A program made the translations under genes and the position numbers. Source: Teretinema zuelzerae (GTDB taxonomy: Bacteria > Spirochaetota > Spirochaetia > Treponematales > Treponemataceae). From it: 64,000 nt of DNA. Below, piece after piece: positions 43,667 to 58,177 of this stretch. A model generated the notes under the pieces. It worked only from the letters and a program-made list of their open reading frames with translations, was not told the DNA's origin and ran no database searches. The stretch is from NCBI RefSeq assembly GCF_021021555.1, contig NZ_JAINWA010000003.1, positions 1,426,001-1,490,000 of the forward strand, in the 5' to 3' direction. Each line of letters opens with the position of its first letter. Position 1 is the first letter of the stretch.

Positions 43667-46519
43667 CTATTTTCCGGGAATATGGATTACCTCGCGGGGC
43701 TTTGAACCGTTTGCAGGACCGACGATCCCGCGCTCCTCCATCTCCTCCACCAGGCGCGCGGCGCGGTTGTATCCGATTTTCAGCTTTCGCTGAATGTAGG
43801 ACGCGCTCGCCTTCCCCGCCAACACAACGATTTCCAGCGCCTTGTCGTAGAGGGGATCGTCCCCTTCGGAAAAGAGGCTCGCGTCGATATCGCCTTCTTC
43901 GTCGTCCTCGACGAAGATTTCTTCGTCTATATAATCGGGTTCCCCGAGCGTTTTCACGAATTCGACCACATGCTCGACTTCTTCCTCGGAGACGAAGGCT
44001 CCCTGAATGCGGACAGGGAAGGGATCGGTCGCGCTCGCGTAGAGCATGTCTCCCCGCCCCAGCAGCTTTTCCGCTCCGACCTGATCGATGATGATGCGGC
44101 TGTCCATCTTGGACGCGACCATGAAGGCGATGCGGGTGGGAATATTCGCCTTGATCAGTCCGGTGATGACGTCGATAGAGGGGCGCTGGGTCGCGAGAAC
44201 CAGGTGGATGCCGACGGCGCGGCTCATGGCGCACAGGCGGGCCACCGTGGATTCAAGCTCCTTGCCGGTGGTCGCCATGAGGTCAGCGAATTCGTCGATG
44301 ATGACCACGATGTAGGGCAGCCGCTCGGTCGCGATGTTGCGCTCGCGGATTCTGCGGTTATAGCTTTTAATGTCGCGCACCCCCATGCCGTCGAGCATGG
44401 CGTAGCGGCGCTCCATTTCGCACAGGCAGTATTGCAGGGCCTGGAAGGCCTTTTTCGGCTCGGTGATGACCGGCGAAAGAATATGGCCGATGTCGTTGTA
44501 GAGCTTGAGTTCGACGATCTTCGGATCGATGAGCAGCAGCTTTACTTCCTCCGGAGAGCGTTTGTACAAAATGGACAGAATGATCGAGTTTACGCAGACG
44601 GACTTTCCCGAACCGGTGGATCCCGCGATCAAGAGGTGCGGAGTGGAAGCAAGATCCAAAAGCTGGGCCTCGCCGGAAATATCCTTGCCCAGAACCACCG
44701 GAATTTCCATCTTCTTCGCGGAAGGCGTATCCGTTTCGATCAACTCGCGGAAGCTGACGATGGCGCGCTTTACGTTCGGAACCTCGATCCCGACCGCGTG
44801 CTTGCCCGGGATGGGTGCGACGATGCGGACGCTCGAAGCCGCGAGCCTGAGCGCGATATTGTCCTGAAGGCCGACGATGCGTGAGAGTTTCACGCCGGGA
44901 GCCGGTAAAATCTCGAACATCGTGATGACCGGCCCCTTCCTGATTCCGGTGACGTCTGCCTGTATCCTGAACTCGTTCAGCGTATCTTTCAGGGCGGCTG
45001 CCGCCCGGCGGGTCGCGTCGTCGATGATCCAGTACTCCCCGTCGGGGTAGGAGGTGAGAATCTCTACCGGAACCCGATAGGAAGCTCCGGCTTTATGCGC
45101 GGGAGGAGAAGAGAATTCCTCGGGAAGGGAGATAGCCGGAGATTCGGCCGCTTCTTCGAACAAAACGTCGTCGATGAAATCGTCGACAAGGTCTTCGTCG
45201 ACGAGATCCTCATCAACCAGGTCCTCATCGACCAGATCCTCGTCTGCCATGTCGTCGTCGCTTATTTCTTCGTCGGCAAGATACGGATCGGGCAGATCGG
45301 CTTCGTTGTCCGCGGCGAATTCGGGTTCGTCGTCGGGCTGATCGGTTTCGTCGAAATTTTCGCCGGGAATCGGGTCGCCCTGCAGGGGCGCTTCATTTTC
45401 CCCGGCGGAAAATTCTTCGTGAACCGGTTCGGAGACGAACTCGTCGGCCAGCTCTTCGTCGGGCAGGATATCGTCAGAGAGGACGTCAAGATCTTCGATT
45501 GTGCTCGTGACCGCGTGCCTGCTGAAGTCCACATAGACCGGCGATTCGATTTCCTTTTTTACGACCGCGGCGGTCGGCGCTTCGGCGGTCAGTGATTCGG
45601 AGGTCGGCGCTTCGGAGGAAGCAGGGACGGAAGGGGCAGGCTGGGTTGCCCGCGAGACAGTTTCGGATGCGGGCCCTGAAGGCATTCGCGATTCAGGAGA
45701 GGATTCCGCCTGAGGCGGGATCGATTCTACTTCAGGGGCGATGCCGGCTTCTTCCTCCGCCTCCGCGATGGTTTTCATGAGGGGGTCTTCAAACGAGGGC
45801 TTTCCTGCGTTCACGTCGGGGAAGCTGAAATCGTCGTCCAGGGAAGCCATGGAATTTTCGGTTTCGTTCTCTTCCGAAACCACTTCTATCCCGTACAAAG
45901 CTTCCGGCGAGGCGAGAACGTCTTCTCCATCCGCTGTTGCAGGAACCGGCGAGGCGAGCGGATCGGAGAGCGTGGAAGCGCGCGGTCGCGCATAATCCGG
46001 TTCTTCCGTGCTCCGGCCGCTGTCCTGCGGTGTTTCGCCGGCATGATTCGATTTCGAACCAGCGCCGTTTTTGGACAAAAGTAGATCGGCGATATGGATG
46101 GACGCGAGGATTTCGCCGAATACCGCGAAAAGCGCGGTAAGGACGATCCCTATGTGGGCCCCGGACAGAAGGATCGAGCCGGCGAGGAGAACGGACGCTT
46201 TTCCGTAGAGGGCTTCAGCCAGGGCGACAGTGAAAAATGGAACGGGAAACGAGGCGAAGAGCACGCCGGCGCGGAGCGACCACCCCGGCACGAACAGCGC
46301 AATGGCGGCTCCGAGAAGAAAGGCGGGAACGAGGAAGGACGAATAGCCGTAGCCCGCAAGGAGAATTTCTCCCGGCAAAAGCAGCCAGCCGGCCGAACCG
46401 TCCAGAGGAAAAAGAACGAACAGAAGGGAGGCGCACAACAGAGCCGCCGCGGCTATAAAGACTGTTCCGAGCGCAACCAGGACGATCCGTCTGCCGTCGT
46501 TTGTTTCATCATTTTGCAT
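43667..46519 (-). CDS. ftsK: DNA translocase FtsK/SpoIIIE
   Basis: A 950-residue septal DNA pump. About four membrane helices lie in residues 10-140, then a long acidic, Pro/Glu/Asp-rich linker (about 150-490) that includes a tandem DEDLV repeat near residues 420-445. The motor has Walker A GSTGSGKS (about residue 630), Walker B VVIIDEFADL, and the C-terminal winged-helix gamma domain (ASYIQRKLKIGYNRAARLVE) that reads polar DNA sequences. Last gene of the leftward envelope operon; it converges on cheD with a five-base gap. Confidence 0.93.
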   Translation of the reverse strand: MQNDETNDGRRIVLVALGTVFIAAAALLCASLLFVLFPLDGSAGWLLLPGEILLAGYGYSSFLVPAFLLGAAIALFVPGWSLRAGVLFASFPVPFFTVALAEALYGKASVLLAGSILLSGAHIGIVLTALFAVFGEILASIHIADLLLSKNGAGSKSNHAGETPQDSGRSTEEPDYARPRASTLSDPLASPVPATADGEDVLASPEALYGIEVVSEENETENSMASLDDDFSFPDVNAGKPSFEDPLMKTIAEAEEEAGIAPEVESIPPQAESSPESRMPSGPASETVSRATQPAPSVPASSEAPTSESLTAEAPTAAVVKKEIESPVYVDFSRHAVTSTIEDLDVLSDDILPDEELADEFVSEPVHEEFSAGENEAPLQGDPIPGENFDETDQPDDEPEFAADNEADLPDPYLADEEISDDDMADEDLVDEDLVDEDLVDEDLVDDFIDDVLFEEAAESPAISLPEEFSSPPAHKAGASYRVPVEILTSYPDGEYWIIDDATRRAAAALKDTLNEFRIQADVTGIRKGPVITMFEILPAPGVKLSRIVGLQDNIALRLAASSVRIVAPIPGKHAVGIEVPNVKRAIVSFRELIETDTPSAKKMEIPVVLGKDISGEAQLLDLASTPHLLIAGSTGSGKSVCVNSIILSILYKRSPEEVKLLLIDPKIVELKLYNDIGHILSPVITEPKKAFQALQYCLCEMERRYAMLDGMGVRDIKSYNRRIRERNIATERLPYIVVIIDEFADLMATTGKELESTVARLCAMSRAVGIHLVLATQRPSIDVITGLIKANIPTRIAFMVASKMDSRIIIDQVGAEKLLGRGDMLYASATDPFPVRIQGAFVSEEEVEHVVEFVKTLGEPDYIDEEIFVEDDEEGDIDASLFSEGDDPLYDKALEIVVLAGKASASYIQRKLKIGYNRAARLVEEMEERGIVGPANGSKPREVIHIPGK

Positions 46520-46584: not shown

Positions 46585-47388
46585 TTAGACAAGCGTAAAA
46601 TAAACGGCCAGCGAAATTCCCATGGGCACCAGGTAGAAGGCGAACCAGCCCAGCCTGCCCCGATTTATCAGGGCTAAAAGGAATTTCAGGGATGCCAGGC
46701 CTACCACAAAGGAAGACAGCATCCCCGCCGCCAGTGAAACGGCGGAAACCGTTCCCATGAGAGTATCGGCATCTTTTACCTCGAGGATAAATGCCGCGAG
46801 TATCGCCGGGATCGCTAAAAGGAAAGAAAATTCCCCCGCCTTTTTCCGGTCGATTCCGCACAGGAGGGCGGCGGATATCGTGCTGCCGGAGCGGGAAATG
46901 CCGGGAATCACGCCGATTCCCTGCGCCGCGCCGATTATGAGGCCCTGAAGGATGCCGGGCTCGGCGGGAGCCTTTTTAGACTGATACCGGCCGGAAAAAA
47001 ACAATACAAGGCCGGTGCAGACGAGGGCGCAGGAAATCCAGAAGGGCGGAAGCGTTTCCACCACATCCTTGATCGAAAAGCCGATAACCGCGGTTACAAG
47101 GGTCGCCGTAATAAGGGCAAGGATCAGCCGGCCTTCCGCCTTGTCTGATTCGAGCGGCTTCCGCGCGGCGTAGCGCCAGACGGTCAGCAGGAGTTCGGCG
47201 ATTCTCCGGCGGAACACGACCAGGACCGCGAAGAGAGTCGCCAGATGGAGGCAGACGTCGAAAAGGAGAGGAACCTCCGAAAGGTTCATGAAATGGGCGG
47301 CCAGGGCGAGATGGCCGGAGCTTGAGACGGGCAAAAACTCGGCAATGCCCTGCAGGGCGCCCAGAAAAACAGCCTGTAAAATAGTCAT
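46585..47388 (-). CDS. uppP: Undecaprenyl-diphosphatase
   Basis: A 267-residue membrane enzyme that recycles undecaprenyl pyrophosphate for wall synthesis. The two active-site regions are present: GIAEFLPVSSSGHL (residues 14-27) and PGISRSGST, in a polytopic background of about eight helices. The ATG at 47388 has GGAG nine bases upstream and lies 19 bases after the stop of the transglycosylase gene. It fits the operon theme of wall metabolism and division. Confidence 0.94.
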   Translation of the reverse strand: MTILQAVFLGALQGIAEFLPVSSSGHLALAAHFMNLSEVPLLFDVCLHLATLFAVLVVFRRRIAELLLTVWRYAARKPLESDKAEGRLILALITATLVTAVIGFSIKDVVETLPPFWISCALVCTGLVLFFSGRYQSKKAPAEPGILQGLIIGAAQGIGVIPGISRSGSTISAALLCGIDRKKAGEFSFLLAIPAILAAFILEVKDADTLMGTVSAVSLAAGMLSSFVVGLASLKFLLALINRGRLGWFAFYLVPMGISLAVYFTLV

Positions 47389-47407: not shown

Positions 47408-49444
47408 TCAGAATATGTCGCGGACAGCCTGTCCGGCGTTTTTTTGATTGTAAAGATACCCGTAAACAGCCGAGGCCGCAAGCACCTTCCGGCCGTAATC
47501 GCGCGTTTCGGCAAAGGGGAGGCTTTCAAGAAAGAGATCGGGCGGAAGGGTTCCCGAAATGCGAACCCATGAGCGCAGGCGGGAAATTCCCGCGTTGTAC
47601 GCGAAAAGGGCGTGCATGATGTTTCCGTCGAGGCGGCCGATCAGTTCGTCCAGATAAAAGGCGCCGAATCTGATGTTCGTCGCGGGATCGGAAAGGTCGT
47701 AGTCGGCGACTTTCAGCTTGCGCGCGACGTCCCCGGCGGTTCCGGCCATCAGTTGCGTTAAGCCCTGAGCTCCGGCGCCGGATGAAACCGCGGGCCGGAA
47801 GAAGCTTTCCGTGCGGATAAGGCCGTACAGGAGAGCGGAATCGACTTTCTCGGTCCGGGCGGCCTCCACCAGGTCGAGCCAGGGCCGGGGATAAATAAAC
47901 GAGAGATCCTCCCGGGTGATTTCGCGATCGGCAGGACGGACGGATTCGAGAACCAGCAGAGCCGCGTCGTCGTAGCGGCCCGCCTCCGAAAGGCCTTCCG
48001 CAAGCTCGCGCGCGTATTCCGGAGAGAGGGATGGAAAGCGTTTGTGCGCCATGGGCAGAACCAGCTCGGGTAGCTTCCATTCGATGAGCGAACGGAAGAC
48101 GGCCATCCACTCCTCCTGCCGCTCCGCAAGATCGCCGGAAAAAGAGGTTTTTTTCCGGACGACCGCCCCTTCGGGGTTCTCCAGGGGAATTCCCAGGGCG
48201 TCGGCCGCAAGAAGCCGGTAATAGAGTGTTGTATGATCCCGCTCCCATACCGCGCGCAGAAGCCGCTCTTCTTCCTCCGGAGGCAAAACGCCTGAGCGTG
48301 CAAGAAGATAATCGAAGCGAACCTGCGTGTCTCCGTCGGCATACGGGCCTGTTTTTTCGGCCAATTCGCGGAGGGATTTCCAGTCGCCGGCACGTACGAG
48401 TTCAGCGGTAAAGGAAGCGAGAAGATTCGAGAAGGCCGGAGAATCGGTCCACAGGGGAGCGGCAAGGACGAAATCCGAGAGCCGTTCGGCGCGGGATTGA
48501 GTGCGGCCGAAATCGAGCCGATACCAGAGGGCGCTGTCCCTGTCGGCTGCGCTGTCCGCATAGGCATGGGCCTTGTCCATGAATTCCCGCGAGCGCGCCC
48601 CGCCGGTTTTTTCTTCGAGCCTCGCGGCGTAAAAATACAACACATGGGAGGCTTCCCGGAAGTCGCTTTGGGCGAGCGCGGCGCAGCGGCCGGCTGCGGA
48701 AAGAAGGAGATCGCGGGCAAGAGCGGCGTCCGGAGCTCCCCTGAAGGCCGCGTTTCCCAGATCGGAAAGAACGGCGCGGGGCAGGGCGGCGTCGACGCCG
48801 GCGGGAAGGTTTTCCAACACCGGGCGGGCAATCGTCCAGGCAGGCCCGTAGTCGCGCTCTGCCATGGCGATCCGCAAGCGAAGCAGCTCTGTCCAGGATC
48901 CCTCTATACCCGGCTTTTCAAGCGCAGTGCGGGCCGCGGAGAGCAGATCCCGATCCAGCGGCCGCGAAAGCACCCAGAGTACGCCTTCCGGCACATCGGA
49001 ATATCTTCCCGAGACGAACAAGAGCCTTTCGCGCTCGGCGGCGAGAGAAGCAGCCTGCAATTCGGGAAACGAGCCGTCGGTCGAGGGGGAGCGCAACGCG
49101 CTTTCCGCTATCTCCAGCCGATCCTCGATCGCGCCGGAAGCGAGAATCGAGGACAGAGCCAGGCTCCTCCAGGGTTCAGGCGATTTTTGCGCGGCAAGCC
49201 GGAAGAAGGCGCGCGCCTCGTCTACCCTTCCCGCTTTTTGGAGATGGGAGGCGAACAACCAGGCGGCGCCCGGAGACGACTTCAAGATACGGGAATACCG
49301 CGCGGGAGGAATTTCGTCAAACCAGGAGAAATCTCCCTTCGAGAGCGAGTCTGCGATTGAATCAAAGGATTTTCCCCACGCGCCCTCCGGAACGGAGGCG
49401 GGAGAGCAGGAAATCAGGAGCGACAGGAACGCTGAAATGAACAT
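47408..49444 (-). CDS. SLT-type lytic transglycosylase lipoprotein
   Basis: A 678-residue protein with an N-terminal signal and lipobox LLISC (Cys13), an alpha-helical superhelical body (about 30-520) like Slt70, and a C-terminal SLT domain. The catalytic Glu is in YGLIRTESFF (about residue 544), followed by SGAGAQGLTQLM and FAYNAG, the standard SLT signatures. It would cleave peptidoglycan between MurNAc and GlcNAc with anhydro-ring formation. Start at 49444, 19 bases after the LysM gene. Confidence 0.88.
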   Translation of the reverse strand: MFISAFLSLLISCSPASVPEGAWGKSFDSIADSLSKGDFSWFDEIPPARYSRILKSSPGAAWLFASHLQKAGRVDEARAFFRLAAQKSPEPWRSLALSSILASGAIEDRLEIAESALRSPSTDGSFPELQAASLAAERERLLFVSGRYSDVPEGVLWVLSRPLDRDLLSAARTALEKPGIEGSWTELLRLRIAMAERDYGPAWTIARPVLENLPAGVDAALPRAVLSDLGNAAFRGAPDAALARDLLLSAAGRCAALAQSDFREASHVLYFYAARLEEKTGGARSREFMDKAHAYADSAADRDSALWYRLDFGRTQSRAERLSDFVLAAPLWTDSPAFSNLLASFTAELVRAGDWKSLRELAEKTGPYADGDTQVRFDYLLARSGVLPPEEEERLLRAVWERDHTTLYYRLLAADALGIPLENPEGAVVRKKTSFSGDLAERQEEWMAVFRSLIEWKLPELVLPMAHKRFPSLSPEYARELAEGLSEAGRYDDAALLVLESVRPADREITREDLSFIYPRPWLDLVEAARTEKVDSALLYGLIRTESFFRPAVSSGAGAQGLTQLMAGTAGDVARKLKVADYDLSDPATNIRFGAFYLDELIGRLDGNIMHALFAYNAGISRLRSWVRISGTLPPDLFLESLPFAETRDYGRKVLAASAVYGYLYNQKNAGQAVRDIF

Positions 49445-49463: not shown

Positions 49464-50432
49464 TTACTTCGGCGGAATGGTAAGATAGGTTCCAGAAATA
49501 ATCAGGTTCGGATTCTTGATCTTATTGTACGTTGAAATTTTCTTGTACAACCAGGGATTTCGGTAATAGGTCTCCGCGAGATCCCACAGGGTATCGCCCC
49601 ACTTGATCTTGTAGCGGATTTCCTTGGCCTCGGGAGCGGGTTCAGGCTGAACGGGAACGACTACCGGCTCTTCCGATACGACGGCGACAGGCTCTTCCTG
49701 GGCAACCTCTACGGGAGGAGGCGTCTGAACCTCTGGAAGAGGTTCCGGTTCGACGGGCGTTTCCACGACCGGAACCACGGGAGCCTCGACGGTTACCGGC
49801 GCCGAACGCGCCGATTCCTGAAGGGTTCTATTCAAGAGCATCACGCGCGCTGAGACGAAAAGCGCGAGAACCAGAGCGAGTACGCCGATCGCGAGGATGA
49901 GGACGCACAGCCATGCGGGCATGAAGATGCCGTTTCGTTTTTCTTCTTCTTGTGTCATTTCGTATAATCCCTCCGGAGCGGTTCCGGGAACCGCGCCTTC
50001 TGTCACTACATACCGATGATCCGGATCCTCGCCGAGCGGGAGGTCGGAATTTATCGGGGTCAAGTCAAAATCGGGCAAATTGTAGAGCGAATCCTTATCG
50101 AGAGTTTCAAGGGAAACAGTGAGAACCTGCCGGGTGTTCGAATCGAGATCCACGGCTTCGGCGGAAAGCTCGTTGTCCTCGTCGAGTGCGAGAGTCAGTT
50201 CGATGGTGGGCTCGCCGGAAGGCTTCTGAGCGATATCTTCGATCATCAGAGTGCCAACATATTCGGCTTCGGAGATATCCTCCGAGGATGAACGGAACAG
50301 ATTGATTTGAACGCTCGTCTGATCGTCGCGCACAGTGGTCAGATCAAGCGCTTTCCGGGCAGGGATTCCTTCTTCAAGAACAGGGAAGAACTTGCTGTCC
50401 GCCAGTTTAATACCAATAGACGCAGCTGCCAT
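49464..50432 (-). CDS. Membrane protein fusing an Hsp70-like peptide-binding domain to LysM
   Basis: A 322-residue protein. Residues about 4-110 resemble the beta-sandwich substrate-binding domain of DnaK/Hsp70: GIKLADSKFFPVLEEG, DDQTSVQINLF and the ELTLALDEDNELSAEAVD strand pair match that domain in order, without any ATPase domain. One membrane helix follows (about 171-195), a Pro/Val/Glu-rich linker, and a C-terminal LysM domain (about 272-320; KIKWGDTLWDLAETYY) that binds peptidoglycan. The start at 50432 has GAGG upstream. By orientation the Hsp70-like part is cytoplasmic and LysM outside. It heads the wall operon; coupling of cytoplasmic state to wall is inference. Confidence 0.7.
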   Translation of the reverse strand: MAAASIGIKLADSKFFPVLEEGIPARKALDLTTVRDDQTSVQINLFRSSSEDISEAEYVGTLMIEDIAQKPSGEPTIELTLALDEDNELSAEAVDLDSNTRQVLTVSLETLDKDSLYNLPDFDLTPINSDLPLGEDPDHRYVVTEGAVPGTAPEGLYEMTQEEEKRNGIFMPAWLCVLILAIGVLALVLALFVSARVMLLNRTLQESARSAPVTVEAPVVPVVETPVEPEPLPEVQTPPPVEVAQEEPVAVVSEEPVVVPVQPEPAPEAKEIRYKIKWGDTLWDLAETYYRNPWLYKKISTYNKIKNPNLIISGTYLTIPPK

Positions 50433-50543: not shown

Positions 50544-51908
50544 ATGAATCAAGGCATCACAATTCTGACGATAATAATCGTTCTCGCCCTGTCCGTTCTT
50601 CTTCTTTCGCTGTTAACCAGGAAAAAAGACGCCAAGGGCCCGAAAAAACCCAGGCAAAAGGATCGCTCGACGATTATCCGCGACGCTACGCGACGTCTGA
50701 GCCAGAATCCCAGAGATCCTGAGGGTCTTTCAGCGATGGGATCGATTCACTACCAGGATCAGAATTGGGAAAAAGCCTACGCCGCCTACGAAATACTCGT
50801 GGACCTCTCTTCCGGGCATCCGAAGCTGGACGAGTTCGAGTGCGCGCTCAGGTTCGGCGTTTCCGCGATTAAAACCAACCGCCTGCAGGAAGCCACCAAG
50901 GGATTCCTCCTCGCAAGAAAGCTCAAGCCGAATCATTTCGAAGTAAATTACAACCTCGGCTACATCTGCTACATGCAGAAGGATTACGAAAAGGCCGTGC
51001 CTTTTCTGAAGCAGTCTCTTCTCGCCGATACCGAAAACATTCTGGCCCAGCGCTACATGGGTTTCGCCCTGCATAAAAGCCACCGATACCGGGACGCCCT
51101 CGCGTATCTTAAAAAAGCGCTCGATCTCCAGCCGGACGACAAGGACGCCCTCTTCGCGATGGCCGAATGCTTGTTCGAATCGGGAGCCCTGGACCGCGCG
51201 CTGAAGATATTCAGCCACCTCAGGCCCGATCCGGTGCTCGGCCCGCAGTCCGCTCTCTATTCGGGCATTATTCACGCCCAGACGAACCAGGCAGAAAAAG
51301 CCGTCACCGACTTTGAAATCGGCCTCAAGCACGAGAACATCCCGCAAGACATCCAGAACGACCTCCGCTACAAGCTCGCGGTTACCTGCATCAAGCTGCA
51401 GGATATCGGAAAGGCGCTCGGAGTTCTCAAAGACATCCAGAAGACGACTCCGGGATACAAGGACGTGCCGGCCCTCATCGTGCGCTATCAGGAGCTGAAC
51501 CAGAACAAGAACCTCCAGGTGTTCCTGTTGGCCGTGCAAAGCGAATTCATCGCCCTGTGCAGAAAGATAGTCGTCCAGTTCTTCCCGGGAGCGAAGGTGA
51601 AAATCACCGACATTTCGATGTTCGCGGACTATGCCGACATAGTCGCCGAAATCGATACGCCGAAATGGTCTGATGTGGTAATTTTCCGCTTTTTCAGGTC
51701 TCAGGGAGCGGTGGGAGAACTCCTGCTCCGCGACTTCCACGGCCGCATCAAGGACCTCAAGGCAGGAAAGGGCATCTGCCTTTCAGCCGGGGTGTTCACC
51801 GAGGAATCGCGGCGATTTACCGAAGGGAGGCCCGTGGACCTCTACGACAAGGACAGATTGAACAAAATTCTTAATTCAGTGGATTCAGGGATGGCCTTGA
51901 AGGTATAA
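50544..51908 (+). CDS. TPR-repeat membrane protein with Mrr-like C-terminus
   Basis: A 454-residue protein anchored by one N-terminal helix (about 5-22). Residues about 50-325 form at least seven tetratricopeptide repeats (for example NYNLGYICYMQKDYEKAVPF). The C-terminal ~100 residues resemble the Mrr-type restriction-endonuclease-like fold: the KAGKGICLSAGVFTEESRRF strand-turn and the YDKDRLNKIL ending are typical, but the catalytic Asp-(Glu/Gln)-x-Lys set is not evident. It may bind nucleic acid or simply be a fold relic. Its end overlaps rsmG on the other strand by 38 bases. Confidence 0.7.
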   Translation: MNQGITILTIIIVLALSVLLLSLLTRKKDAKGPKKPRQKDRSTIIRDATRRLSQNPRDPEGLSAMGSIHYQDQNWEKAYAAYEILVDLSSGHPKLDEFECALRFGVSAIKTNRLQEATKGFLLARKLKPNHFEVNYNLGYICYMQKDYEKAVPFLKQSLLADTENILAQRYMGFALHKSHRYRDALAYLKKALDLQPDDKDALFAMAECLFESGALDRALKIFSHLRPDPVLGPQSALYSGIIHAQTNQAEKAVTDFEIGLKHENIPQDIQNDLRYKLAVTCIKLQDIGKALGVLKDIQKTTPGYKDVPALIVRYQELNQNKNLQVFLLAVQSEFIALCRKIVVQFFPGAKVKITDISMFADYADIVAEIDTPKWSDVVIFRFFRSQGAVGELLLRDFHGRIKDLKAGKGICLSAGVFTEESRRFTEGRPVDLYDKDRLNKILNSVDSGMALKV

Positions 51909-55369: not shown

Positions 55370-58177
55370 TCAATTCGGCATCCATATGTTCGGGAACTGC
55401 CCTTCCGCCGTATTTCCGGTGCAAGACGCATTGAAGGATCCGTAACTATCGGTCAAACTGCCGGCATCTTCGAAATACGCTCCGCCGCCTTCCAGTCCCG
55501 CGGTATTCTCAGTGATCGAATACGAATCCGAAGTCAGCACGGACAGCGTTCCTCCCGTCTCGACGAATACCCCGCCTCCGTACGCGGAAACGGTATTCCC
55601 GGCAATAGACGCCGCACCGGAAATCGACATTGAGTTTTGCGCGGTTACATAGACTCCGCCGCCGTTGAGGGCAGAATTATCGTCTCCTGTCGTTGAAGAG
55701 CCGATATTTCCGGACAGTAAATTAAGCGTCGACGATGAAAAACTCGCCGAATCATACTCCAGATATACCGCGCCGCCGTTCCCGTTGGGAGCTGAACAGC
55801 CTTTAATGCCGCCGCCTGACAACATCGCAGTTCCGCCTTTCACCAGCAAACCGCCCCCGTTCCCGGCAGTATTGCTGTTGTTCCGTACAAACGCGCCCGT
55901 ATTAAGCGACACTGTGCCGTTAAACATGACGGAAACCAGAGGATAGGCAGATGAAGTTTGAACTGCGGAACCGATAAATACATCCGACAGATTCAGATAT
56001 CCGTTGCCGGAAACGGTAATGAGCGAACCTGTTAAAGTCCCGTTCGGATATATCGTGCGAGGGGTCAGGGGATTTAGCGAGTTGATGGATACCGTGCGGG
56101 CAACAGTGAGCGGGCTAGAGACCGGGATGTCCTCAACCAGGTAGATCGTGTACACGTTAACGGCATTCAAGGCGTCTTCCAGCGAACAGGGGTAATCTTC
56201 GCTGGAGCCGTCGCCTATGCGGGTAGAGGCGACATAGGCTTCATACGAGGAAATCCAGCTTCCGTACAGCGCAAAGTTCTCTGTTCCGGCTGTCGCCGCG
56301 GTATTACTGGCGAAGTACGGCAAAGAAGCCGAATATCCGTACAACGAGGACCCGGCGGCCAGATACACGCCTCCGCCTTCTCCGGTTGCGGTATTGCCGG
56401 AAATCGCGTCGCCGGGATTCATCTGAAGATAGAGGTTAGCGCCGGAAGCCGCGTAGACCGCGCCGCCGTTCGCCGCGGTACAACCGGTGATAGACCCGCC
56501 ATTGACGGTCATATTTCCTCCGGACAGGTACACAGCGCCGCCGTTGCCGGACGTGTTGGTCGAATTTCGTATCAGCGAGTCCGACAAGAGCCCGAACGAA
56601 GCGCCCGATGACACGCTGACCAAGCTCGCCGTGCGGCTCAATCCAGCACCGTCGAGGATGACGTTCGTCATCATAAGCGACGGATAATTATATGTTACGG
56701 GATCCTGCGCGACAGTCAGGAAGGGAGAGGTTGTTCCGGTATACGTAATCACCGCCCTCGAGTCTTCCGCATAATTCGTCAGCATCGAAAGAATAGTGGC
56801 GTTTGCGCTGAGGGCATAGGAAGCCGAAGTCGTCACGGATTCGGTCAGGTATATCATAACCATGCCGCTGGTTTCGGTGGATAAGGCGGCTGAGGCAAGC
56901 GCGGAGTCGAGCGTACAGAGATTTGCTATATCGGATCCGCTTCCATCGCCCTTCGCGGCCGCTCCGACATAGTAATACACCGTCAAATTCGGAGCGAGAT
57001 ATTCATCGCTCAAATTGAGAACTCCGGTATCGTTAGAAGATACCAGGCGCATATATCCGAACATATATGCGCTTTCGAAGCTATAATCGCCGTAGGACGC
57101 TTTGATGACTGAATAGTCCGATACGGAGGACACATCGACGATCGAAGAGAGAGAGTCGTCCTTATCGATCAGAGCCGCGACGAAATACGGCGTGTTCTTC
57201 TGAGTCGCGTAAGGGGCGCCTGTTCCCGGAACTATCAATGAAACAGAGCCGGCTCCCATCGCGTCCAGAGTCGCTACCCCGACGGCATCAGGAACGAGGC
57301 TGGCGATATCCGGGCCGGATTGGCCGGACTGCCAGGCTAAATACGAATCGCGGGAAAGGACCTTCACGAATAAACGCTTCCCCCCGATCGAAGTTGCCGT
57401 TTCGTTCGGCATATACACGGCAGTGCCGCTTCCGCCCGCCAAACCGAAAAGCCCTTTCGTGATTCTATCGTCGTAAATCTTTACGATCGTGTCGGGGATG
57501 AACGGACGATACGAACCGCTGACCGAATCCAGATATCTCGCTTCCAACCTATAGTCCCCGCTGGCAAGACTGGTATTGTACAGGGAAACATAGGGGTTTC
57601 CGGAGGGATCTGTCATGGCCGACGGCGTAGGAATCTCTACAGCTGTTCCGGTATCGATACTGGTCAGGGTAATGGACCATTCAGTCAGCGAAGGATCGAA
57701 CGGCAGATTATAGGCAGCGATTTCAAAGGAACCGGTTCCTCCGACGGTCCGAGTCGGCGTTACGGTTACAGGCACCGTATTCACGCCGGTAGTTAAATCC
57801 AAAGTAACCGCGTACGGCCCATGCTGACGGCCCTCGTAATCCATGCAGGTCACGGAGATTATATAGGCAATATCCGGGGCAATCTCATCGAAGACAAACT
57901 CCGAAAGCGGCGTACCGTACCGGGTATAGGATTCCATAGTATTTAACGCAACCGTCAATTTCACTTCTACGGAGGAAATATCCTTGGCCAGCATTACCGG
58001 CCTGATAGACCGTCCGCTCGTCTCAGCGGAAGCGAAGTCTATTTTCACCGCTACTGTTTTTCCGTCGTTGCCGGCCTGGACGCTTTCCGTCTTCCCGTCA
58101 AGAACAGGATTGAAGCAGGAGACCAATGAAAACAGCACGGTAAGGGGAAGAAAACGCGATACATTGAGTATTCTCAT
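55370..58177 (-). CDS. Large surface lipoprotein with Pmp-like beta-helix repeats
   Basis: A 935-residue lipoprotein (lipobox SLVSC, Cys21). An N-terminal beta-sandwich region (about 40-245) is paralogous to that of the lipoprotein at 60372-62921. A ~110-residue module around SIGGKRLFVKV (nt about 57080-57430) is shared with the two neighbours upstream. The C-terminal ~550 residues form a right-handed beta-helix of the polymorphic-membrane-protein style, with repeated GGAVYLS and SGNTA turns. It lacks an autotransporter barrel, so it is likely tethered by lipid. Nine bases separate it from the preceding gene; it ends the operon before the terminator. Confidence 0.7.
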   Translation of the reverse strand: MRILNVSRFLPLTVLFSLVSCFNPVLDGKTESVQAGNDGKTVAVKIDFASAETSGRSIRPVMLAKDISSVEVKLTVALNTMESYTRYGTPLSEFVFDEIAPDIAYIISVTCMDYEGRQHGPYAVTLDLTTGVNTVPVTVTPTRTVGGTGSFEIAAYNLPFDPSLTEWSITLTSIDTGTAVEIPTPSAMTDPSGNPYVSLYNTSLASGDYRLEARYLDSVSGSYRPFIPDTIVKIYDDRITKGLFGLAGGSGTAVYMPNETATSIGGKRLFVKVLSRDSYLAWQSGQSGPDIASLVPDAVGVATLDAMGAGSVSLIVPGTGAPYATQKNTPYFVAALIDKDDSLSSIVDVSSVSDYSVIKASYGDYSFESAYMFGYMRLVSSNDTGVLNLSDEYLAPNLTVYYYVGAAAKGDGSGSDIANLCTLDSALASAALSTETSGMVMIYLTESVTTSASYALSANATILSMLTNYAEDSRAVITYTGTTSPFLTVAQDPVTYNYPSLMMTNVILDGAGLSRTASLVSVSSGASFGLLSDSLIRNSTNTSGNGGAVYLSGGNMTVNGGSITGCTAANGGAVYAASGANLYLQMNPGDAISGNTATGEGGGVYLAAGSSLYGYSASLPYFASNTAATAGTENFALYGSWISSYEAYVASTRIGDGSSEDYPCSLEDALNAVNVYTIYLVEDIPVSSPLTVARTVSINSLNPLTPRTIYPNGTLTGSLITVSGNGYLNLSDVFIGSAVQTSSAYPLVSVMFNGTVSLNTGAFVRNNSNTAGNGGGLLVKGGTAMLSGGGIKGCSAPNGNGGAVYLEYDSASFSSSTLNLLSGNIGSSTTGDDNSALNGGGVYVTAQNSMSISGAASIAGNTVSAYGGGVFVETGGTLSVLTSDSYSITENTAGLEGGGAYFEDAGSLTDSYGSFNASCTGNTAEGQFPNIWMPN

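Follow-up and report, generated by a model that had tools for sequence, protein, structure and literature searches.

Several described systems resemble parts of the locus studied here. The FimV/HubP proteins contain a periplasmic LysM domain, one membrane region, an acidic cytoplasmic stretch, and an interaction domain, and they are linked to flagella (PMC12918733). In Borrelia burgdorferi, transglycosylase activity is needed for the passage of the hook through the wall, and bb0258 adjoins bb0259 (PMC8517470). In the work on the Borrelia collar, an unassigned density remains near the inner membrane (PMC11750108).

In our study, a stretch of 64,000 nucleotides of Teretinema zuelzerae (the window) was found to contain a gene on the reverse strand, from nucleotide 49464–50432. 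The open reading frame encodes 322 amino acids from an ATG, and the coordinates given in the original prediction agreed exactly with the frame. An AAGAGG-like site was present just 5' of the ATG, and an alternative in-frame TTG would add seven amino acids at the N-terminus. The protein contained an Hsp70 substrate-binding β-sandwich at residues 3–108 (50109–50426, reverse strand, as are all its parts), as found by Pfam, phmmer, AlphaFold2, and Foldseek. This was followed by an acidic linker of low confidence at residues 109–170 (49923–50108), recognised from the predicted structure and the composition, and by the core of a single membrane helix at residues 175–193 (49854–49910), recognised by hydropathy. 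A Pro/Val/Glu-rich linker of low pLDDT, taken as periplasmic, was present at residues 211–271 (49620–49802), and a LysM domain, presumed to bind peptidoglycan, at residues 274–320 (49473–49613). Elsewhere in the window, a frame from nucleotide 55370–58177 encoded a 935-amino-acid protein with GG-containing repeats and a lipoprotein-like start, possibly an outer-surface β-helix protein.

The Pfam HSP70 profile (PF00012) matched residues 6–109 with an E-value of 2.5e-9 and 36.4 bits (cut-off 20.6), covering positions 394–499 of the 599 in the profile, and the NCBIfam dnaK model matched residues 22–109 with an E-value of 6e-10, covering positions 408–495 of 596. The phmmer matches in the PDB were the substrate-binding domains of mitochondrial Hsp70 and DnaK, with a best E-value of 7e-7. 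The AlphaFold2 model, built with 25 sequences, contained eight strands at residues 5–107 with a pLDDT of mostly 81–93, one helix at residues 173–210, and a LysM-like strand-helix-helix-strand order at residues 272–319. All 50 chains among the Foldseek matches listed for this model were of the DnaK/Hsp70 type, and alignment of the model by VIA-align with DnaK 396–503 (4r5l) gave a Z of 16.1 and an rmsd of 1.7 over 106 residues. No Hsp70 ATPase domain was found, as the HSP70 match was restricted to profile positions 394–499 and the protein begins at the sandwich. No helical lid (SBD-α) was found in the model, where residues 115–165 were unstructured with a pLDDT below 50 for most. The LysM domain matched PF01476 above the cut-off (residues 274–320, E-value 9e-7), and its GDTLW motif was invariant in 25 of 25 alignment rows. 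The genome itself contained one gene of this type; a second match lay within a 658-amino-acid frame and was taken as the true DnaK. An Hsp70-type peptide-binding sandwich without an ATPase had been predicted from the letters alone, and the profile searches and the fold match to DnaK bear this out; the structure prediction and DnaK search, proposed with it as a check, gave an Hsp70-like N-terminus (Z about 16, rmsd 1.7). By computation, then, the cytoplasmic end of the protein has the Hsp70 SBD-β fold with a conserved peptide groove and with neither ATPase nor lid.

The conservation of the groove was studied at 11 DnaK pocket positions, which were mapped to the family through the structural alignment with DnaK 396–503. 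Of these DnaK residues, M404, A429, and V436 are also named in PMC8215388. In 41 representatives with less than 60% identity, the mean entropy of the pocket positions was 0.97 against 2.20 for the other positions of the domain, and none of 20,000 random draws was as low. Within residues 5–46 alone, the pocket entropy was 0.97 against 1.88 elsewhere (p 0.00085). No other part of the sandwich is as well conserved as the pocket positions. The arch of the groove differed from that of DnaK in the same 41 representatives, where position 404 was Ala (88%) and position 429 was Val or Ala. This difference, together with a degenerate Borrelia version, would fit a structural scaffold in which the sandwich no longer binds peptides and serves as a protein–protein module or an oligomer unit. 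We regard such a scaffold as improbable, since a discarded pocket is not expected to be the most conserved part of its domain, and eukaryotic cytosolic Hsp70s likewise contain Ala at 404 (PMC8215388).

The relatives were spread over the class Spirochaetia and three families outside it. All 40 of 40 relatives matched at E≤1e-3, the weakest ones through DnaK-like frames only. The anatomy was counted in 138 relatives after removal of three DnaK frames (L002, L177, and L185). The linker between the sandwich and the helix ranged from 38 to 670 amino acids, with a median D+E content of 30% and K+R content of 5%; in the window protein the acidic cytoplasmic stretch contained 22% D+E. LysM was present in 126 of the 138 relatives having a membrane helix; one member scored as LysM-free (L105) was found to carry LysM in a second frame, so that the LysM-free members are 11. 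LysM was missing in the Borrelia-type proteins (L139 and L140), in family f17, in one genome each of families f35 (G087) and f31 (G066), and in one of the two copies of G046 (family f12). In the latter genome, a short LysM-free copy lay beside the transglycosylase and a complete SBD-TM-LysM copy elsewhere (L149 and L150). In the Borrelia-type protein the sandwich was degenerate and the acidic linker long, the membrane helix stood at the C-terminus, and there was no LysM. LysM, which belongs to the architecture of the original prediction, is not constant, since Borrelia and several other lineages carry sandwich and helix without it; the constant part is the sandwich, the acidic linker, and the membrane helix.

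The orientation in the membrane was judged from the charges beside the helix. With flanks of 10 residues in 38 representatives, K+R was higher on the N-terminal side in 25, equal in 12, and lower in 1. With flanks of 15 residues in all 138 sequences the signal was weak (N-terminal side higher in 61, equal in 39, lower in 38), and the flanks of the window protein tie (2 against 2). Reading of the sequences found no N-terminal signal ahead of the sandwich and linker, which together make up roughly at least 150 residues. The ligands of LysM are located outside the cytoplasm. On these three grounds we take the sandwich to be in the cytoplasm and LysM outside, and the inside-to-outside topology that had been proposed is supported by the charges of the 38 representatives. 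On our best reading, the product is a bitopic tether in the inner membrane whose peptide pocket works without ATP.

The next gene (47408–49444, reverse strand) encoded a flagellar assembly lytic transglycosylase of the BB0259 type (NF047373, 657.5 bits, cut-off 234). It was followed on the same strand by an undecaprenyl-diphosphatase of the UppP/BacA type (46585–47388; PF02673, E-value 2.3e-70) and by FtsK with its alpha, motor, and gamma domains (43667–46519). The linker of this FtsK contained several copies of a tandem acidic DEDLV-like repeat. On the forward strand (50544–51908), a profile search showed that a conserved, divergently oriented neighbour encodes a membrane-anchored TPR protein of 454 amino acids with a C-terminal Mrr_cat-like domain. 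A contig search confirmed 127 related stretches, of which 80 were kept for counting adjacency. The transglycosylase was directly downstream in 79 of the 80 by a strict rule, and the 80th (L010) failed this rule only through an overlapping, mechanically assigned start of a reading frame. Among 20 loci chosen across families, one of which (L199) is cut by the contig end on the transglycosylase side, 12 had the transglycosylase as the adjacent gene and 14 had the divergent TPR gene adjacent. UppP and FtsK followed the transglycosylase in the window as well as in several families, from which the whole block (TPR gene, sandwich gene, transglycosylase, UppP, FtsK) looks old; it was also found outside the class in family f73 (L205) and in a Borrelia-type locus (L139). 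Unlike the transglycosylase, UppP and FtsK did not adjoin the sandwich gene in most related loci. In family f16 (L189 and L190), the gene was followed directly by FtsK with no transglycosylase at the locus, and in two genomes of this family (G050 and G110) the transglycosylase had a weak match or none genome-wide, though FliF was present. In family f30, the transglycosylase and the TPR gene lay side by side and the sandwich gene was missing in five of five inspected loci (L141, L142, L145, L147, and L148), which offers a natural deletion for comparison. The gene had been placed at the head of a wall operon; FtsK, UppP, and the transglycosylase do adjoin, and the transglycosylase is of the flagellar type, which is more specific than a general wall function.

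The distribution of the gene was examined in 394 genomes of the class, with FliF, FlhA, and the transglycosylase as flagellar markers. The presence calls rest on E-values (about 1e-14), and 23 doubtful or distant genomes were inspected again; regions were read individually in 14 and 20 cases, and the other genomes were classed by E-value. One genome (G117) was set to negative, its match being DnaK, and one (G213) to positive, with only the membrane-LysM half visible, beside the transglycosylase. The gene was found in 210 of the 394 genomes, namely in 201 of 281 FliF-positive and 9 of 113 FliF-negative ones. The latter nine carriers count as flagellate, eight by FlhA and G225 by the transglycosylase. 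Two near-complete genomes (G027 and G375) contained FlhA and the transglycosylase with no FliF match, through an assembly gap or a diverged FliF. None of the 101 genomes judged non-flagellate, defined by no FliF and no strong transglycosylase match, contained the gene, and FlhA was absent in all 15 checked among them. As 91 of these 101 belonged to one family (f13) and the other 10 to f7, f8, and f22, the independent losses are few. The Fisher value of the co-occurrence (4e-33), which ignores shared descent, was not used. In family f3, three genomes (G032, G035, and G038) lacked the gene, FliF, and FlhA, and two (G026 and G029) had all three; in f7, f8, and f22, all 10 genomes lacked FliF, FlhA, and the sandwich gene. 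The gene was not present in all flagellated relatives, with 80 of the 281 FliF-positive class genomes having no recognised copy; these included 36 of the Borrelia type (the reduced form was present in both that were inspected) and 24 of family f30. Outside the class, it was found only in families f47, f60, and f73, in eight genomes of the phylum sample, all with FliF. The phylum-wide co-occurrence has no power, since FliF was present in 63 of 64 genomes tested, 55 of the 56 non-carriers included; the sole genome without FliF (G455) had a match to the LysM part only and was excluded from the eight carriers. The taxonomic survey, suggested earlier as a check, thus gave a gene spread across Spirochaetia and three outside families, which tracks flagellation and, within the sample, occurs in flagellated spirochetes only.

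The adjacency of the transglycosylase and the presence only in flagellated relatives point to a probable role in building or placing the internal flagella. The original prediction had named a division or wall-synthesis partner. On that view the tether would be a wall-growth or division factor, joining peptidoglycan to a cytoplasmic protein of division or wall synthesis, and non-flagellate spirochetes would have lost it through a change of wall or shape and not of flagella. UppP and FtsK in the block of the window and several families fit it, as do the loci of family f16 where FtsK directly follows the sandwich gene with no transglycosylase. Family f13, the main non-flagellate family, is presumably Sphaerochaeta-like, and we take its walls to be unusual, which would also agree. 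Against it, the adjacent gene is the transglycosylase in 79 of 80 loci and not UppP or FtsK in most, and the three genomes of f3 and all 10 of f7, f8, and f22 lack the gene together with FliF and FlhA. We therefore consider a wall-growth or division role rather unlikely and a flagellar partner likelier, as the adjacent enzyme is of the BB0259 type and the gene tracks flagellation. The f30 and other FliF-positive genomes without the gene count against a universal flagellar role. UppP and FtsK in the same block, the f16 loci, and the second copy away from the transglycosylase in f12 count against the flagellar reading itself.

The divergent TPR protein contained an N-terminal membrane helix in addition to its Mrr_cat-like domain. 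It was found in 18 of 20 flagellate genomes tested and in none of 41 non-flagellate ones; the count leaves out a partial match in G045, and G048 had no match. Many flagellate genomes also contained a second, weaker TPR paralogue. A structure search gave solely TPR folds among the matches listed, and a comparison of the tails by eye gave nothing clear as a motif present only alongside the sandwich gene. The neighbour is a possible undescribed flagella-linked protein. Since it, too, is conserved beside the sandwich gene and no non-flagellate genome tested contains it, we regard it as the first candidate partner.

The explanation we prefer, to which we give a little less than an even chance, is a membrane–wall tether with an ATP-independent peptide pocket serving the assembly or placement of the periplasmic flagella, where the flagellar role is what we infer from the neighbourhood and distribution. 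A flagellar protein of the cytoplasm or inner membrane would be held in the groove by a short hydrophobic segment, the first candidate being the divergent membrane-anchored TPR protein. Binding would be a simple equilibrium with no ATP-driven lid, and a groove that binds by equilibrium is better suited to tethering than to folding. LysM would fix the complex of groove and partner to peptidoglycan, and this link may align the basal body, as it forms, with the transglycosylase that makes the opening in the wall for the rod and hook, and/or keep the motor positioned close to the cell pole. The fold and pocket of a chaperone and the linkage to flagella would also be expected of a membrane-bound holdase, which would use LysM to fix its position and would keep export substrates or other flagellar subunits extended for a time close to the export gate. 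Such a holdase seems distinctly improbable to us, as there is no ATPase or lid for the release of a client and the need for a wall anchor is hard to explain; the LysM-free members are neutral on this point. Within the tether explanation, the protein may work like a FimV/HubP landmark with the peptide groove replacing the TPR domain. In its fullest form, which we think unlikely to be right, the protein would be the landmark by which many spirochetes place and anchor their periplasmic flagella. It would have evolved independently as a counterpart of FimV/HubP: a flagellar partner, recruited by the orphaned, ATP-independent Hsp70 groove, would be pinned by LysM to the wall at the point where the paired transglycosylase opens it.

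A genome of the Treponema pallidum type contained the full architecture, followed by the flagellar transglycosylase and then MnmG, which we take to be TP0044. From the gene order, which gives the locus number, TPASS_0042 is the probable T. pallidum orthologue. It has been listed as 'Peptidoglycan binding (LysM domain)' in PMC5951579, so that only its LysM was annotated. TP0048, guessed as the orthologue from its position, was rejected because it has been published as a bactofilin/CcmA, and the reported TP0048–FliS links (PMC2386257) are therefore irrelevant to the sandwich protein. FlcC (BB0624) was likewise rejected: a Sec signal is predicted for it (PMC11750108), and the locus calls for a different number. 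Searches by name for BB0260/BB0261 gave no relevant paper, and no functional study of a spirochete protein with LysM and Hsp70/DnaK parts, or of TP0042, was found in literature that barely covered subscription journals, where one may exist. Within this coverage, the statement that the architecture has no described function stands. If an Hsp70 peptide groove has been kept for a long evolutionary time with no ATPase attached, a well-studied chaperone fold has been put to an unusual use. The lineages of the syphilis and Lyme spirochetes contain the protein, complete or reduced, beside an enzyme that Borrelia has been shown to require for the assembly of its flagella, and the fixing and placement of the internal flagella of spirochetes becomes testable through one gene.

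In comparison with the known systems, the sandwich is like the SBD-β of Hsp70/DnaK in fold (Z 16, rmsd 1.7, 106 residues) and in the kind and place of its pocket residues, whereas the window protein lacks the nucleotide-binding domain and the lid, and its sandwich is joined to a membrane helix and LysM. The genes are ordered as at the Borrelia BB0259 locus, where the sandwich gene takes the position of BB0260 (a number we infer from the order); in Borrelia, however, the sandwich is degenerate, the membrane helix is C-terminal, and LysM is missing. The Borrelia collar proteins FlcA–FlcD and FlbB are likewise spirochete-specific flagellar parts; however, FlcC is predicted to carry a Sec signal, and no named collar gene is present at this locus. 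As in FimV/HubP, the window protein contains LysM, one membrane pass, an acidic stretch, and a terminal cytoplasmic interaction domain, although its LysM is C-terminal, which reverses the order, and an Hsp70 substrate-binding domain stands in place of the TPR/FimV domain. Pfam and NCBIfam gave no match to the FimV family or to TPR in the window protein, and a TPR protein is encoded by its neighbour. We read the likeness to FimV/HubP as one of similar working and not of kinship.
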